Positions 27,461 through 35,544 of a DNA stretch of 35,544 nucleotides are shown here, in pieces; position 1 is the first letter of the stretch; each line of letters begins with the position of its first letter. Both the position numbers and the translations under genes were made by a program. This DNA is from a virus. Location: the IMG/VR virus record IMGVR_UViG_3300045996_000815, positions 1 to 35,544 of that record. The stretch is one strand, 5' to 3'. A model generated the notes under the pieces. That model had not been told where the DNA came from, made no database searches, and was given only the letters and a program-made list of their open reading frames with translations.

Positions 27461-27760
27461 ATGACCCAGTTACTAGACGATTCAGCTACGCTGAATCAGT
27501 TGTCGGACCTGGGGATTCCGGTCCCTCACATCGAGTTCATCCGCATCGTCGTTCCCGGCATCTGCGAGGTCCGGAACACCCGAACCAACAGCTCACACCT
27601 GTTCAAAGGCTGGGTCGATCTCGACGACCTGTTCAATCCCGACACCACACCGGATGGCGAGTGGATCGAGGTCTTCCTCGAACACGGCGAAACTGACAAC
27701 CTCGACGCCGCCTTCCTTGAGGCCGAACTGCGTGAGTGGTTGATCAAACTCCCGGCCTGA
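27461..27760 (+). CDS. Early protein of 99 aa, unknown
   Basis: An acidic protein starting MTQLLDDSATLNQLSDLGIP with a beta-rich middle (HIEFIRIVVPGICEVRN) and a helical, acidic C-terminus (DAAFLEAELREWLIKL). The segment EWIEVFLEHGE is nearly repeated out of frame just past the stop codon, showing a partial duplication. No family recognised. Confidence 0.6.
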   Translation: MTQLLDDSATLNQLSDLGIPVPHIEFIRIVVPGICEVRNTRTNSSHLFKGWVDLDDLFNPDTTPDGEWIEVFLEHGETDNLDAAFLEAELREWLIKLPA

Positions 27761-27764
27761 CTCC

Positions 27765-27797
27765 GAGTGGATCGAGGTCTTCTTTGAATACGGGGAG
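27765..27797 (+). pseudogene. Partial duplicate of the upstream gene's 3' part
   Basis: GAGTGGATCGAGGTCTTC is identical at 27659-27676 and 27765-27782, and the flank remains similar to 27797 (EWIEVFFEYGE against EWIEVFLEHGE). The copy is in another frame from the complete gene and lacks a start codon, so it is a remnant of a tandem duplication or of recombination with a related phage. Confidence 0.55.
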
Positions 27798-27803
27798 CTA
27801 GGC

Positions 27804-27822
27804 GATTGAGCTTGGCTCAATC
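27804..27822. terminator. Perfect 8-bp hairpin downstream of the duplicate
   Basis: GATTGAGC (27804-27811) and GCTCAATC (27815-27822) with a 3-nt loop. No U-run follows, so termination would be inefficient. Confidence 0.3.
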
Positions 27823-27895
27823 AGACTGGTTCCCACTAATTCATCTCTAATACAGAACAAATCGGCAACATCAATCCGCAGCTCAGGAGAATCAA

Positions 27896-28920: not shown

Positions 28921-29334
28921 ATGGCCATCGATTTCACCAAGACCTTCGGCGCTTCCAGCACCACCAGCACCAAGTCCTCGGCTCCGGCCGCTAACCACAG
29001 CGACAAGCCGAAAGCAAAATTCTGGATCAATCTCGGCTACGCCTCGGGCGTGATGGACGACGAGGGCAACGACCGCTTCGTGTCGCTGCCCGTCGGCATC
29101 CCGCTCGACACCCAGGACCGCCTGCCGACCACCAGCCGCAACAAGGAGTTCGCCGCCTTCCAGGCAGCCCGCAACGATCTGTTGGACCAGCTCATGGAGT
29201 TGGCGGGCGGTCTGGAGCCCGGTGAGGATTGCATCCTCAAGCTGGAGGTCCAGCTCCGCCGCGTCAACGACGAGCAGCCCGAAGCCAGCATCTCCGACAA
29301 CAAGTTCGCGCGCAAGATCGCGTTGGTTTCTTAA
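28921..29334 (+). CDS. 137-aa conserved phage protein
   Basis: After a Ser/Thr/Ala-rich leader (1-27) comes KAKFWINLGYASGVMDDEGN, then DRFVSLPVGIPLDTQDRLPT and EFAAFQAARNDLLDQLMELA, ending with a beta-rich segment (CILKLEVQLRRVND). This pattern occurs in small proteins of many proteobacterial phages, often in early regions near replication genes; a nucleic-acid-binding role has not been shown to my knowledge. GGAGAG lies 6 nt before the ATG. Followed by a terminator-like hairpin. Confidence 0.7.
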   Translation: MAIDFTKTFGASSTTSTKSSAPAANHSDKPKAKFWINLGYASGVMDDEGNDRFVSLPVGIPLDTQDRLPTTSRNKEFAAFQAARNDLLDQLMELAGGLEPGEDCILKLEVQLRRVNDEQPEASISDNKFARKIALVS

Positions 29335-31402: not shown

Positions 31403-31439
31403 CTACAACATTTCCGTACAACATGAGCCCATGTTGTAG
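31403..31439. promoter_or_regulatory. TACAACAT triple element upstream of integrase
   Basis: CTACAACAT (31403-31411), TACAACATG (31417-31425) and CATGTTGTA (31430-31438): two direct copies and one inverted, the last pair forming a 9-bp palindrome with a 4-bp centre, 26-62 nt upstream of the TTG start. It could be the integrase operator or part of the attachment site. Confidence 0.5.
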
Positions 31440-31464
31440 CGGGCATCAATGGGAGGGACTGGCA

Positions 31465-32529
31465 TTGGGCACCATCATCGAACGCCGCCGCAAGGACGGC
31501 AGCATAGCCTACCTGGTTCAGATCACCATCGCGAGCGGTGGTTCCACCCACCGCGAGAACCGGACCTTCGATCGACGCCAGGCCGCCCTGGTCTGGCTGG
31601 AGAAGCGCGAACGGGAACTGAACCAGCCGGGCGGACTGGACAAGGCCAGGCATCAGGCCGTCACGCTCGGCATGGCGATCGACCGCTACATATCCGAGTC
31701 CGAGAAGCAGATGGGCCGGACCAAGGCCCAGGTGCTGCGCACCATCCAGGGCATGACGATAGCCAACAAGCCGATCAGCACCATTACCAGCGCCGACCTC
31801 GTCGCCATGCTGAGAGAGATCGACGCCCAGCCCAGTACCCGAGGGAATTATCTCTCGCACATCTCGACCATCTTCGCCCTGGCCAGGCCCGCCTGGGGCT
31901 ACGACGCCGAGCACAGCACCGCCAAGGATGCAGCATCCAGTGCCAAGCGCCTCGGCATCACGGCCAAGTCCAAGCACCGCTCCCGGAGACCCACGCTCGA
32001 CGAGCTGGACCGGCTGATGGACCACTTCCAGGACCGCGAAACCCGGCGGCCGGCCATGATGCCGATGACCAAGATCATCGTCTTCGCGCTGTTCTCGGCG
32101 CGACGCCAGGAGGAGATCACCCGCATCCGCTGGGACGACCTCGATCCGGCCCACAGCCGAATCCTGGTCCGCGACATGAAGAATCCCGGCGAGAAGCTGG
32201 GTAATGACGTATGGTGCGACCTGCCCGAGCCAGCCCTCAAACTTATCCTGAGCATGCCCCGCACCGACCGTGAGATCTTCCCCTACACCACCGACGCGAT
32301 CAGCGCCAACTTCACCCGCGCCTGTCAGCTCCTCGGCATCGAGGACCTGGTGTTCCACGACCTGCGCCATGAGGCGGCCAGCCGGCTGTTCGAGATGGGC
32401 CTGAACATTCCCCATGTCGCCGCGGTCACCGGCCACCGGTCCTGGCAGAGCCTGAAGCGCTACACCCACCTCCGGACCACCGGGGACAAGTACCAGAACT
32501 GGACCCATAACCCAGCCGGGCAACCCTGA
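31465..32529 (+). CDS. int: Tyrosine site-specific integrase
   Basis: This 354-aa recombinase has an N-terminal arm-binding beta domain (GTIIERRRKDGSIAYLVQIT, 2-21), a core-binding helical domain (about 65-165) and a catalytic domain with Arg214 (SARRQEEI), Lys239 (RDMKNPG), His298 and Arg301 (HDLR), His324 (GHRSW) and the nucleophile Tyr333 (KRYTHL). All catalytic residues are present. I choose the TTG at 31465 because homologues begin M-G-T-I-I-E-R and GGGAGG lies 8 nt before it; an ATG at 31423 falls inside the palindromic element. It integrates the phage into the host chromosome and, with a directionality factor, excises it. Confidence 0.93.
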   Translation: MGTIIERRRKDGSIAYLVQITIASGGSTHRENRTFDRRQAALVWLEKRERELNQPGGLDKARHQAVTLGMAIDRYISESEKQMGRTKAQVLRTIQGMTIANKPISTITSADLVAMLREIDAQPSTRGNYLSHISTIFALARPAWGYDAEHSTAKDAASSAKRLGITAKSKHRSRRPTLDELDRLMDHFQDRETRRPAMMPMTKIIVFALFSARRQEEITRIRWDDLDPAHSRILVRDMKNPGEKLGNDVWCDLPEPALKLILSMPRTDREIFPYTTDAISANFTRACQLLGIEDLVFHDLRHEAASRLFEMGLNIPHVAAVTGHRSWQSLKRYTHLRTTGDKYQNWTHNPAGQP

Positions 32530-32580: not shown

Positions 32581-33123
32581 GTGACACAGCGTTTGATATA
32601 CACGGGCATCGGGTCGAGGAAATCGCCCGAAGCCATCCAGCAGCAGATGATCATCATCGCCAAGCAGCTCGCCGAATCCGGCTGGCTGTTCCGCTCCGGC
32701 CACGCCGACGGAGCAGACCTCGCCTTCGAGATGGGCTGCATCATGGGCGATGGCCTGAAGGAAATCTTCCTGCCCTGGAAGGGCTTCAACAAGGCACCCC
32801 AGAACCACCGCGATTACATCGTGGTCCGGCCGACCCTGGAGCTGCATGACTTCTCCGCCAGCTTCCACCCCAACTGGACCGCCTGCTCCCAGGCCGCCAA
32901 GCTGCTCCACATGCGCAACGGCTGGCAGATGCTGGGGCCTGAAGGCGACCGGCCGACCGACATGGTGGTCTGCTGGACCCCCAACGGGGAACGCTCCGGC
33001 GGCACCGGCCAGGCTCTGCGTATTGCCGAACACTTCAACATCCCGGTCTTCGACCTGGCACTAAGCGAGACCCCCAAGCGGCTCTGCGAGTTCGTCATCG
33101 AGCGGGAGAGGAAAGCAGCATGA
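32581..33123 (+). CDS. SLOG/LOG-like Rossmann-fold nucleotide-binding protein
   Basis: This 180-aa protein has the SLOG superfamily pattern: first strand and loop LIYTGIGSRKSP (5-16), the helix-strand unit WLFRSGHADGADLAFEMG (35-52), a third strand MVVCWTP (128-134) and the Gly/Thr loop SGGTGQALRIA (139-149), ending in IPVFDLA. SLOG domains bind nucleotides or NAD-like ligands; relatives include DprA, cytokinin-activating LOG and the sensor domain of the Thoeris ThsA protein. The start is GTG at 32581, with AAAGGAG 4 nt upstream. The start codon of the next gene overlaps its stop (ATGA). Here it could hydrolyse or sequester a small nucleotide; a target is not known. Confidence 0.78.
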   Translation: MTQRLIYTGIGSRKSPEAIQQQMIIIAKQLAESGWLFRSGHADGADLAFEMGCIMGDGLKEIFLPWKGFNKAPQNHRDYIVVRPTLELHDFSASFHPNWTACSQAAKLLHMRNGWQMLGPEGDRPTDMVVCWTPNGERSGGTGQALRIAEHFNIPVFDLALSETPKRLCEFVIERERKAA

Positions 33124-33326
33124 GCAACGCCCCCAAACGTGGCCTGCGTCGCTTCGAGAAAGACGAAACCCAGGCCCTGCACAAGCTGATCCTCCAGATG
33201 AACAACCTCCACGCCAAAATGGGTGGTCGCACCCACCGCCCGGAACGCAAGGCGCTAAGCCGGTGCATCCAGATCCTCCAGCGGGAAAACGACCGCAAGT
33301 GGGCGGAGTTCGTCGATCAAACCTGA
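33120..33326 (+). CDS. 68-aa basic helical protein
   Basis: MSNAPKRGLRRFEKDETQAL begins a basic protein with two helices (about 16-35 and 42-62) ending in WAEFVDQT. It overlaps the SLOG gene by 4 nt (ATGA), a sign of coupled, near-equal synthesis, and might be its partner. No family recognised. Confidence 0.55.
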   Translation: MSNAPKRGLRRFEKDETQALHKLILQMNNLHAKMGGRTHRPERKALSRCIQILQRENDRKWAEFVDQT

Positions 33327-33345
33327 ACCAGAAGGAAACTCAACT

Positions 33346-33591
33346 ATGCCCGGTTCCCGGTACATCGGACCAAGGACCTGCTGGAACTGGCCCTGCACCG
33401 TCGATCCGGTCATTCCGGCTGGCAATTACGTCCTTGTCTACCTCGGAGCGCTGATCGCCGCAGGCTTAGCGTGCCATCTCCTGACCTTCCTGCTGCGCCG
33501 CCAGACCGTACCGGCCTGGGCGCTTCCCCTGCCCATAGCGGCCTTCCTGCTGGCCATCGTCCCGCTCTGGCGGATCTTCATCCACTTCTGA
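33346..33591 (+). CDS. 81-aa protein with two membrane helices
   Basis: After a short polar start with two cysteines (CWNWPC), two clear membrane segments follow: about 27-50 (YVLVYLGALIAAGLACHLLT) and 59-81 (LPLPIAAFLLAIVPLWRIFI). An AAGGA site precedes the ATG. Small two-helix proteins in early regions include superinfection-exclusion and holin-like proteins; which applies here cannot be told. Confidence 0.6.
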   Translation: MPGSRYIGPRTCWNWPCTVDPVIPAGNYVLVYLGALIAAGLACHLLTFLLRRQTVPAWALPLPIAAFLLAIVPLWRIFIHF

Positions 33592-33612
33592 CATCCACAC
33601 CCCGGAGCCGAC

Positions 33613-33948
33613 ATGAGCAACCCGATCATCATCCTGAACAAGCATCACAAGCCCAAGGAGAGCGACCGGAACTTCTATGTCGGTCGGGGCTCGGCCCTGG
33701 GCAACCCGTTTCCGATCACCGAGAGCCGTAACCGGGACGCCGTCATCAAGGACTTCGAGGACTGGCTGGAGGACCGAATCCGGAGCCAGAACAAGCACGT
33801 CCTCGCCCTGCTGAACACCATCGCCGAGGCGGCGATGGACGGCACCAACAAACCGGTCGGGCTGATCTGCTTCTGCGCTCCCAAGCGCTGCCACGCCGAG
33901 ATCATCCGCAAAGTCATCAACGCAGCGATCCAAGGAAAGAAGAAATGA
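33613..33948 (+). CDS. DUF4326-family protein
   Basis: This 111-aa protein has the DUF4326 signature: YVGRGSALGNPF (22-33), a helical middle, and LICFCAPKRCHAEII (84-98), whose Cys86, Cys88, Cys93 and His94 may bind metal or act as a thiol centre. The family is frequent in phages and often stands alone; its biochemical activity is not established as far as I know. It overlaps the next gene by 4 nt (ATGA) and lies in the same cluster as the SLOG protein. Confidence 0.85.
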   Translation: MSNPIIILNKHHKPKESDRNFYVGRGSALGNPFPITESRNRDAVIKDFEDWLEDRIRSQNKHVLALLNTIAEAAMDGTNKPVGLICFCAPKRCHAEIIRKVINAAIQGKKK

Positions 33949-34334
33949 GTAAACGAGTGTTTACGTTCGCGAGCAATGACGCCGGAATCCACGGCTCGGG
34001 AGACGCCAAGACCGCCTACACCAAATACGGTGCCCGCTACGGCAAGTCCTATGGGCACTACGGCGACAGCTTCGCCATCCCGACCAAGAGCGATGTCCTG
34101 GAAACTCTCCCCTTGAGTCGCATCGAGGACTACGTCCGGGGCTTCCTGGCCTACGCCCGTGGCCACCACAAGCTGGAGTTCCAGGTCACTCGGATCGGCT
34201 ACGGCCTGGGAGACCTCAACGAGGCTGATATAGCCGATCTGTTTGTCGGCGCATCCAACAACGTGCTTTTTGACAGGAAATGGTATCCGTACCTCGGCGA
34301 AACCGTCACCTACTGGGGCAGGTCAGATGACTAA
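33945..34334 (+). CDS. A1S_2505-family phage protein, macro-domain-like
   Basis: This 129-aa protein matches the family of phage non-structural proteins called A1S_2505: VFTFASNDAGIHGSGDAKTA (5-24), YGDSFAIPTKSDVLETLPL, the helix IEDYVRGFLAYARGHHKLEF, QVTRIGYGLGDL (80-91) and SNNVLFDRKWYPYL. The Gly-rich loops and the alternating strand-helix order are like a macro domain, a fold that binds ADP-ribose; that comparison is my inference. It overlaps the DUF4326 gene by 4 nt and the next gene by 8 nt. A role in processing ADP-ribose-type molecules during infection would fit the neighbours. Confidence 0.75.
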   Translation: MSKRVFTFASNDAGIHGSGDAKTAYTKYGARYGKSYGHYGDSFAIPTKSDVLETLPLSRIEDYVRGFLAYARGHHKLEFQVTRIGYGLGDLNEADIADLFVGASNNVLFDRKWYPYLGETVTYWGRSDD

Positions 34335-34521
34335 GCGCAACCCCCTCAACGACGCCGATTACTACTACGAGGACAAGCAGATCGACGACCTCAAAGACAC
34401 CGTCCACGCCCTGATATGCGATGTCGAGTACCTGCTGATTCGCGCCCACAAGCACCTGGTCGATCCCGACAGGATCAATGAGATCAAGCACCGGATCATT
34501 CACCTGAATACGGAGTCCTGA
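34327..34521 (+). CDS. 64-aa acidic protein
   Basis: MTKRNPLNDADYYYEDKQID begins a protein with an acidic-aromatic N-terminus and two helices (about 17-39 and 45-60). The ATG lies inside the previous gene (8-nt overlap). A longer upstream frame would overlap that gene over 90 nt and lacks a ribosome site. No family recognised. Confidence 0.55.
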   Translation: MTKRNPLNDADYYYEDKQIDDLKDTVHALICDVEYLLIRAHKHLVDPDRINEIKHRIIHLNTES

Positions 34522-34524
34522 ATC

Positions 34525-34935
34525 GTGACCACCGACACCCTGACCAAGACCATCCCCGGCACCATGGACCGTCCGCTGCACCGGACTGATTACGCCAACG
34601 GCCAGCTCTCGATCGTCTTCACCGATGCCGCCCACCTCGCGGACGCCTGGATCTTCGCCGACAAACACGGCAAGACCAAGGAGTTCGAACAGGGGATCAT
34701 GCGCCTGATCCGCTCGGCTCTGGGTAACGCGGTGCCCAGCCGCGCCTTCCAGCACCAGAGCTACCGCGAGGAGGGTGTCATGATCGAGTACCCGGCCCAG
34801 CCGGGTCAGGAAGTCAAGCTGACCATCCATCCCGACAGCCACGCAACGCCCTCGTTCCTGTTCCAGGAAACCCCTGGGCTGACCGGCGGGCTGATCTTCC
34901 ACAGCTACGACGCAAGCTGGACGATCCACACCTGA
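34525..34935 (+). CDS. 136-aa protein of unknown function
   Basis: After a Thr-rich N-terminus come LSIVFTDAAHLADAWIFADK and FEQGIMRLIRSALGNAVPSR, then a beta-rich end (GGLIFHSYDASWTIH). The start is GTG at 34525 with GGAG 8 nt upstream, 3 nt after the previous stop. No signal peptide, membrane helix or catalytic motif seen. Confidence 0.6.
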   Translation: MTTDTLTKTIPGTMDRPLHRTDYANGQLSIVFTDAAHLADAWIFADKHGKTKEFEQGIMRLIRSALGNAVPSRAFQHQSYREEGVMIEYPAQPGQEVKLTIHPDSHATPSFLFQETPGLTGGLIFHSYDASWTIHT

Positions 34936-34950
34936 ACCAAGAAAGGAATC

Positions 34951-35079
34951 ATGAGTCCCCTGCCGGGCACGCTCGCCTTCGCGTTCTGGCTCCACGCCCA
35001 CCTGCTGCGCCAGTTCACCCTCCGGATCTACACCCCCACCCTTGACCCAAAGAAAGTGATAGCCCCATGCAAGTCCTGA
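34951..35079 (+). CDS. 42-aa small protein
   Basis: MSPLPGTLAFAFWLHAHLLR starts a hydrophobic helix that may sit at a membrane, followed by a short basic tail. AAGGA lies 4 nt before the ATG, a strong ribosome site, and the stop overlaps the next gene's start by 13 nt. Function unknown; it could be a leader peptide for the thioredoxin-like gene. Confidence 0.45.
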   Translation: MSPLPGTLAFAFWLHAHLLRQFTLRIYTPTLDPKKVIAPCKS

Positions 35080-35306
35080 TCTTCGGCGCACCCTGGTGCG
35101 CGAGCTGCAAAGTCCTGAAGAAGCAACTGGAAGGTAAGACCTTCGACGGCTTCGAGATCGAGCACGTGGACATCGAGGCCAACCCGGCCCTGGCCACCAA
35201 GCACAACGTCATGTCGCTGCCGACCATCGTGGTCCCCGAGACCGGCCTGGTCCGGCGCAACGTCACGACTCTCAAGCAGTTCGCCGAGCTGCTGGCGTCG
35301 GTCTGA
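35067..35306 (+). CDS. Mini-thioredoxin/glutaredoxin-like protein
   Basis: This 79-aa protein has the redox motif WCASC (Trp10, Cys11, Cys14) after the first strand, the VDIE strand (34-37), and the cis-proline loop SLPTIVV (Pro52). It is shorter than E. coli thioredoxin (108 aa), like phage glutaredoxin-type proteins. It may reduce ribonucleotide reductase or cytosolic disulfides; no reductase gene is in the window. AAAGAAAG precedes the ATG at 35067. Confidence 0.85.
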   Translation: MQVLIFGAPWCASCKVLKKQLEGKTFDGFEIEHVDIEANPALATKHNVMSLPTIVVPETGLVRRNVTTLKQFAELLASV

Positions 35307-35521: not shown

Positions 35522-35544
35522 GCGAGAACCCCCACGAAGACCTG
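35518..35544 (+). CDS. Start of a further rightward gene, cut by right edge
   Basis: ATG at 35518 overlaps the preceding stop (ATGA) and reads MSENPHEDL to the edge. The overlap arrangement used repeatedly in this operon supports a real gene, but only nine codons are visible. Confidence 0.4.

Follow-up and report, generated by a model that had tools for sequence, protein, structure and literature searches.

A SLOG, DUF4326 and A1S_2505 gene cluster in the early region of an N4-like phage and its predicted links to ADP-ribose chemistry

The IMG/VR virus record IMGVR_UViG_3300045996_000815, whose 35,544 nucleotides are referred to here as the window, covers part of the genome of an N4-like phage (Schitoviridae). 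Between positions 32,581 and 35,306 it carries a cluster of small genes encoding, among others, a SLOG protein, a DUF4326 protein and a member of the A1S_2505 family. This cluster belongs to the early region of the phage and corresponds to gp12-gp14 of phage N4 with an additional SLOG gene upstream. The explanation put forward here, in which our confidence is about evenly balanced, is that, as infection begins, these small proteins bind ADP-ribose compounds or process them, probably to blunt host defenses. A1S_2505 would be a minimal TARG1/DarG-type macrodomain by which ADP-ribose groups are removed or captured, DUF4326 would have a breakdown product of this chemistry as its substrate, and SLOG would sense or bind a nucleotide or a nucleic acid; the defenses probably targeted would be those based on NAD-derived signals or on ADP-ribosylation of nucleic acids. 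The original prediction, made from the letters of the window, had proposed a module acting on nucleotide signals or NAD metabolism. The predicted A1S_2505 fold and fusions in relatives support an ADP-ribose/NAD role at the level of the families, as predicted in PMC9503650.

Domain fusions and predicted folds

Judged from sequence, the strongest evidence that these families may share an ADP-ribose chemistry comes from domain fusions and from one gene pair. Five fusion architectures, represented by seven distinct proteins, can be found in relatives. A1S-NADAR (L305:6935-8437) and ADP-ribosylglycohydrolase-A1S (L303:6050-7342) fusions are each encoded in a Bacteroidales genome, and an A1S-YAcAr SLOG fusion in Bacteroides phage DAC20 (L011). 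A NADAR-DUF4326 fusion occurs in an N4-like contig with A1S_2505 1.1 kb downstream (L028:8059-8931), and DUF4326-SLOG fusions are present in N4-like phages (Zuri gp15, L025 and L146). The gene pair is that of a Burkholderiaceae metagenome-assembled genome, where DUF4326 lies directly upstream of A1S_2505. SLOG, Macro, NADAR and DUF4326 domains have been predicted to counter ADP-ribose signals, and the same published survey reports that Macro, NADAR, SLOG and Nudix domains co-occur beyond chance in DNA viruses (PMC9503650).

The window A1S_2505 protein scores 124.4 bits against NF049995, for which the NCBI cut-off is 45. Its AlphaFold2 model, with a predicted local distance difference test score (pLDDT) of 92.8, retrieves TARG1, DarG and viral macrodomains from the PDB, with probabilities mostly of about 1, template modeling (TM) scores of about 0.6 and E values of 0.0007-0.05; these matches include TARG1 (E 0.002-0.004), DarG with ADP-ribose (5m3e, TM 0.64) and DarTG (7omu, probability 1.0). 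On this model, A1S_2505 has a macrodomain fold and is a remote member of the superfamily, which bears out its initial description as macro-like. Independently of the model, TARG1 is also among the top matches of the A1S_2505 sequence profile in PDB sequences, over 61 residues without gaps; since its E value is only 0.4, this alignment is support and not proof. It pairs K48 of A1S_2505 with the catalytic lysine of TARG1 (K84, equivalent to K80 of DarG; PMC5179494) and G85-x-G87 with the GCG loop of TARG1. Among 187 unique A1S_2505 sequences, H16 and A21 never vary, G85, G87 and N106 hardly do, and all of these residues, together with K48, are retained in the window copy. As the scans for A1S_2505 used the pattern [IV]FVFGSNxxG, positions 7-11 and 14 were fixed by selection and are excluded from the evidence of conservation. 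The family also includes bbp37 of Bordetella phage BPP-1 (L007:4950-5378), which adjoins bbp36, a gene annotated with 'variable region 2'.

The SLOG protein is of the DprA-like type (phrog_768), as assigned from sequence profiles, and is 53% identical to the SLOG of an N4-like contig (L019/L176). The GIGSR, RSGxAxGAD and GGT positions that are invariant across 51 SLOG sequences are all kept in the window. Its match to the Pfam DprA model is below threshold (E 0.003), and 46 of the 51 relatives match this model weakly; among solved structures, the closest to the SLOG profile are DprA proteins, and ThsA was not found by it. A ThsA-type SLOG is therefore unsupported, in view of the PHROG assignment, the Pfam tendency and the structural matches, and so is, for this SLOG, the connection to the Thoeris sensor drawn in the original prediction. 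Binding of single-stranded DNA has been suggested for DprA-type phage SLOGs (PMC7824862), and for the window protein a DNA-binding role may be just as probable as one involving cyclic ADP-ribose. With the PADLOC models, no match was obtained for the window SLOG, A1S_2505 or thioredoxin-like proteins and only a weak one for DUF4326 (E 0.023).

DUF4326 of the window scores 63.1 bits against PF14216 (gathering cut-off 25). R25, G30, N31, C86, C88, P90, C93 and H94 are invariant in 63 sequences and kept in the window, where the CxC...CH motif, present in 63 of 63, is intact. The model is of high confidence (pLDDT 93.0). Weak matches to DUF488-N3a were obtained for 41 of the 63 members (best E 2.9e-5) and are compatible with the putative rhodanese-phosphatase assignment of the family in PMC9503650. 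A macro-like or evident nucleotide-binding fold is unsupported for DUF4326, given its relation to DUF488 and the outcome of the PDB search given below. In N4 itself, gp9 (L003:2805-3119) looks like a second, degenerate copy of DUF4326 that has lost the CxC...CH motif.

Phage lineage, co-occurrence and alternative readings

The cluster is assigned to the Schitoviridae early region because of the portal, the terminase, the shared gene order and the position of N4 gp12 and gp14. For the window portal, identity reaches 73% with its counterpart in a 73.8-kb contig, in which the N4 RNA polymerase 2 (RNAP2) gene is also present, and records with matching portals carry N4 RNAP2; the window terminase gene terL is 77-80% identical to that of the closest N4-like contigs. 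The order terL, gp1-like, gp2-like, SLOG, DUF4326, A1S_2505 is common to the window and N4-like contigs, with SLOG, DUF4326 and A1S_2505 in the same order in L038 and L097. The N4-type portal and terminase and the N4-like gene order by which Schitoviridae are recognized are thus all present. In Escherichia phage N4, gp12 is a DUF4326 protein and gp14 an A1S_2505 protein, encoded just upstream of the RNA polymerase genes gp15 and gp16 (RNAP1/RNAP2); the window ends at 35,544, short of the position of RNAP1/2 in relatives. In N4, transcription of the early genes is carried out by the injected virion polymerase (PMC4496689), and early expression is also inferred for the window cluster.

Scanning viral contigs with single SLOG, DUF4326 and A1S_2505 sequences gave no match, and alignment-based scans were required. 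Among the 80 A1S_2505 loci in viral contigs, DUF4326 was found within 10 kb in 18 and SLOG in 15; these neighbors are all on the same strand as A1S_2505, and 32 of the 33 lie within 3 kb. For comparison, when 50,697 phage records were searched by tblastn with these queries, 616 of them contained DUF4326 and 1213 contained SLOG. Either gene was near A1S_2505 in 26 of 37 Schitoviridae loci (Fisher p 3e-10 against the loci elsewhere, given below), these counts being descriptive, as the loci are incomplete and related. A Pfam scan of 142 A1S_2505 neighbors, nearly all outside Schitoviridae, revealed no enrichment in ADP-ribose functions (one PARP domain, two RNA ligases).

Several observations weigh against a joint role in ADP-ribose chemistry. 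Outside Schitoviridae, DUF4326 or SLOG is near just 2 of 43 A1S_2505 loci, and within this family SLOG shows no positive association with DUF4326 at these loci (both in 5, only DUF4326 in 12, only SLOG in 9, neither in 11; Fisher p 0.50). SLOG resembles DprA, a family that binds single-stranded DNA, and a PDB search with the DUF4326 model gave no significant match. None of 74 A1S_2505 members matches Pfam Macro, such a match being a criterion of detection and not a definition of the macrodomain fold. Finally, K48 is a lysine in 116 of the 187 A1S_2505 sequences, and the window copy carries the changes A20D, C86Y and G90D in conserved glycine-rich loops.

Owing to the contrast between Schitoviridae and other phages and to the lack of a positive association between SLOG and DUF4326, the neighborhood can be said to reflect mainly common descent with modular exchange. 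The split within Schitoviridae also rules out an obligate trio, and co-occurrence in unrelated phages, one of the measures by which the original prediction was to be judged, proved weak. As the neighborhood is mostly inherited within one phage family, the clustering of these genes alone is not proof of a joint pathway. Accordingly, there is a real possibility, to which we give rather less than even credence, that the genes have independent early functions, in which the DprA-like SLOG would bind single-stranded DNA, DUF4326 would be a rhodanese-like enzyme and A1S_2505 a macrodomain, and that they adjoin one another only because this is where many small early genes are maintained in N4-like phages. 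The near-restriction of co-occurrence to Schitoviridae, the unassociated SLOG and DUF4326 genes, the mixed neighbors of A1S_2505 in other phages and the DprA matches of the SLOG profile all fit this explanation. However, the fusions join these domains to one another or to ADP-ribose enzymes, DUF4326 directly precedes A1S_2505 in the Burkholderiaceae genome, and the published co-occurrence in DNA viruses goes beyond chance; these points speak against independent functions.

Other explanations concern A1S_2505 more specifically. It is conceivable, but in our judgment unlikely, that the protein mimics DarG and removes ADP-ribose from phage DNA or RNA after modification by a host DarT-type toxin. 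DarG macrodomains with ADP-ribose are among the best fold matches, K48, aligned with the catalytic lysines of TARG1 and DarG, is conserved across about 90% of the viral set and also in the window, the nearly invariant Gly85 and Gly87 match the ligand loop of DarG, and other anti-DarT factors are known from phages (PMC11481870). Nevertheless, K48 is replaced by M or L in about one third of all relatives, the alignment to TARG1 is weak, and the loop of the window protein carries Tyr and Asp. These unusual loop residues leave the activity of the window copy uncertain, and it may, with a similarly low probability, be losing its function: A20D and C86Y occur in no other of the 187 sequences, G90D occurs in one other, and D98 in none of 73 relatives. 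Yet the reading frame is full-length, H16, A21, G85, G87 and N106 are retained, and the overlaps with both neighboring genes are intact. Least probable of all is a role in RNA repair or NAD metabolism and not in counter-defense, e.g., the clearing of ADP-ribose-phosphate by-products of RNA end repair, on which macrodomains and 2H proteins act (PMC9503650): in favor of it, A1S_2505 of Rhizobium phage B1VFA has an RNA ligase two genes away and a NadM/Nudix protein close by, and the 142 neighbors include the two RNA ligases mentioned above, but no gene for RNA repair or NAD biosynthesis was recognized among the window proteins scanned in or near the cluster.

Layout of the cluster

All the genes initially named, i.e., those for SLOG, the basic protein, the membrane protein, DUF4326, A1S_2505 and the CxxC protein, are present on the + strand (Table 1). 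The first five had been described as following one another with overlaps of 4-8 nt, with the CxxC gene further on. Only three junctions overlap, namely SLOG with the basic open reading frame (ORF) and DUF4326 with A1S_2505, by 4 nt each, and A1S_2505 with the ORF at 34327, by 8 nt; the membrane ORF, however, has gaps of 19 nt and 21 nt on its two sides. The run also includes two ORFs absent from that description (34327-34521 and 34525-34935), and an interval of 131 nt separates the thioredoxin-like gene from the gene before it. The basic and membrane ORFs have no relatives in the 255 loci compared, and a close relative of the thioredoxin-like protein is found 3' of A1S_2505 in an N4-like contig (L029). 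The thioredoxin-like gene and the small ORFs are not consistent members of the cluster. Neither tRNA genes nor Rfam families were found in the window.

Table 1. Genes of the cluster and of its early-region context in the window.
Feature	Position	Strand	Evidence or remark
phrog_4099 homologue (corresponding to N4 gp2), early-region synteny marker; context	28921..29334	+	
Tyrosine integrase of the early region, immediately 5' of the cluster; context, outside the module	31423..32529	+	PF00589 E 1.5e-19; phrog_1 E 6.8e-42
DprA-like SLOG protein, 180 aa, GTG start	32581..33123	+	phrog_768 'DprA-like' E 1.5e-51
Basic ORF, 68 aa	33120..33326	+	15 K/R vs 8 D/E; no family matched
Predicted two-helix membrane ORF, 81 aa	33346..33591	+	two hydrophobic segments by hydropathy; no family matched
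DUF4326 protein, 111 aa, N4 gp12 homologue	33613..33948	+	PF14216 E 4e-17, above cut-off
A1S_2505 family protein, 129 aa, N4 gp14 homologue, macrodomain-like predicted fold	33945..34334	+	NF049995 124 bits
ORF, 64 aa	34327..34521	+	overlaps A1S_2505; no relatives found
ORF, 136 aa, no known family	34525..34935	+	relatives directly 3' of A1S_2505 in N4-like contigs L021 and L180
Thioredoxin-like CxxC protein (CASC), 79 aa	35067..35306	+	PF00085 E 2.1e-9

The presence of an integrase within the early region is unusual. A homologue can be found in only 1 of the 255 loci, L141, which is also N4-like, and integrases have been reported from some N4-like viruses (PMC10654107). From the integrase matches, the record was at first taken for a Bcep22-like temperate podovirus, an assignment that was dropped in favor of an N4-like phage after a search with the whole record. 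Farther upstream lie two similar perfect hairpins at 27472-27500 (ATTCAGC-TAC-GCTGAAT) and 27797-27825 (ATTGAGC-TTG-GCTCAAT) with compensating changes in the stem, which may serve the virion RNA polymerase as early promoters or represent other signals. In the early region, a direct repeat of 33 nt, 88% identical, has its copies 106 nt apart at 27658-27690 and 27764-27796.

Comparison with known systems

With ThsA of Thoeris, the window protein shares the SLOG superfamily (PMC9503650 and general knowledge), but it differs in lacking a ThsA profile match and in having DprA proteins as its closest solved relatives. A1S_2505 resembles the TARG1 and DarG macrodomains in the fold of its model, the aligned K48 and the glycine loop, whereas it is smaller (about 125 aa), of low identity (12-16%) and without a universal catalytic lysine; at the position aligned with TARG1 Asp125, the family has Ala and the window copy Gly.

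The gp12/gp14 region of N4 corresponds to the cluster in its homologous genes, their order and strand, and their position 3' of a gp2-like gene, with RNAP1/RNAP2 downstream in N4. Unlike N4, the window has the upstream SLOG gene, the integrase, small ORFs without family and the thioredoxin-like gene; gp13 separates DUF4326 from A1S_2505 in N4 while no gene intervenes in the window, and the A1S_2505 loops have diverged in the window copy. The literature searched gave no function for either N4 gp12 or gp14. It can tentatively be proposed that gp14 is an unrecognized macrodomain of the TARG1/DarG type which, with DUF4326 (gp12) and with or without SLOG or NADAR, would form an early enzyme set stripping or degrading ADP-ribose defense products across N4-like phages. 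N4 being a classical laboratory phage, the placement of gp14 and the fusion links open a bench test of survival under NAD- or ADP-ribose-based immunity.

The network described in PMC9503650 shows the same set of domains and the same kind of fusions, although most viral SLOGs are YpsA-like there while the SLOG of the window is DprA-like. A1S_2505, phage N4 and Schitoviridae are unnamed in the main text of that paper, and the A1S_2505 family is tied in here through its fold and its fusions. The macrodomain placement of A1S_2505 and N4 gp14 and the associated fusion network, all computational, are the new elements, and the cluster is a new example of a counter-defense toolkit already proposed and not a new kind of system.

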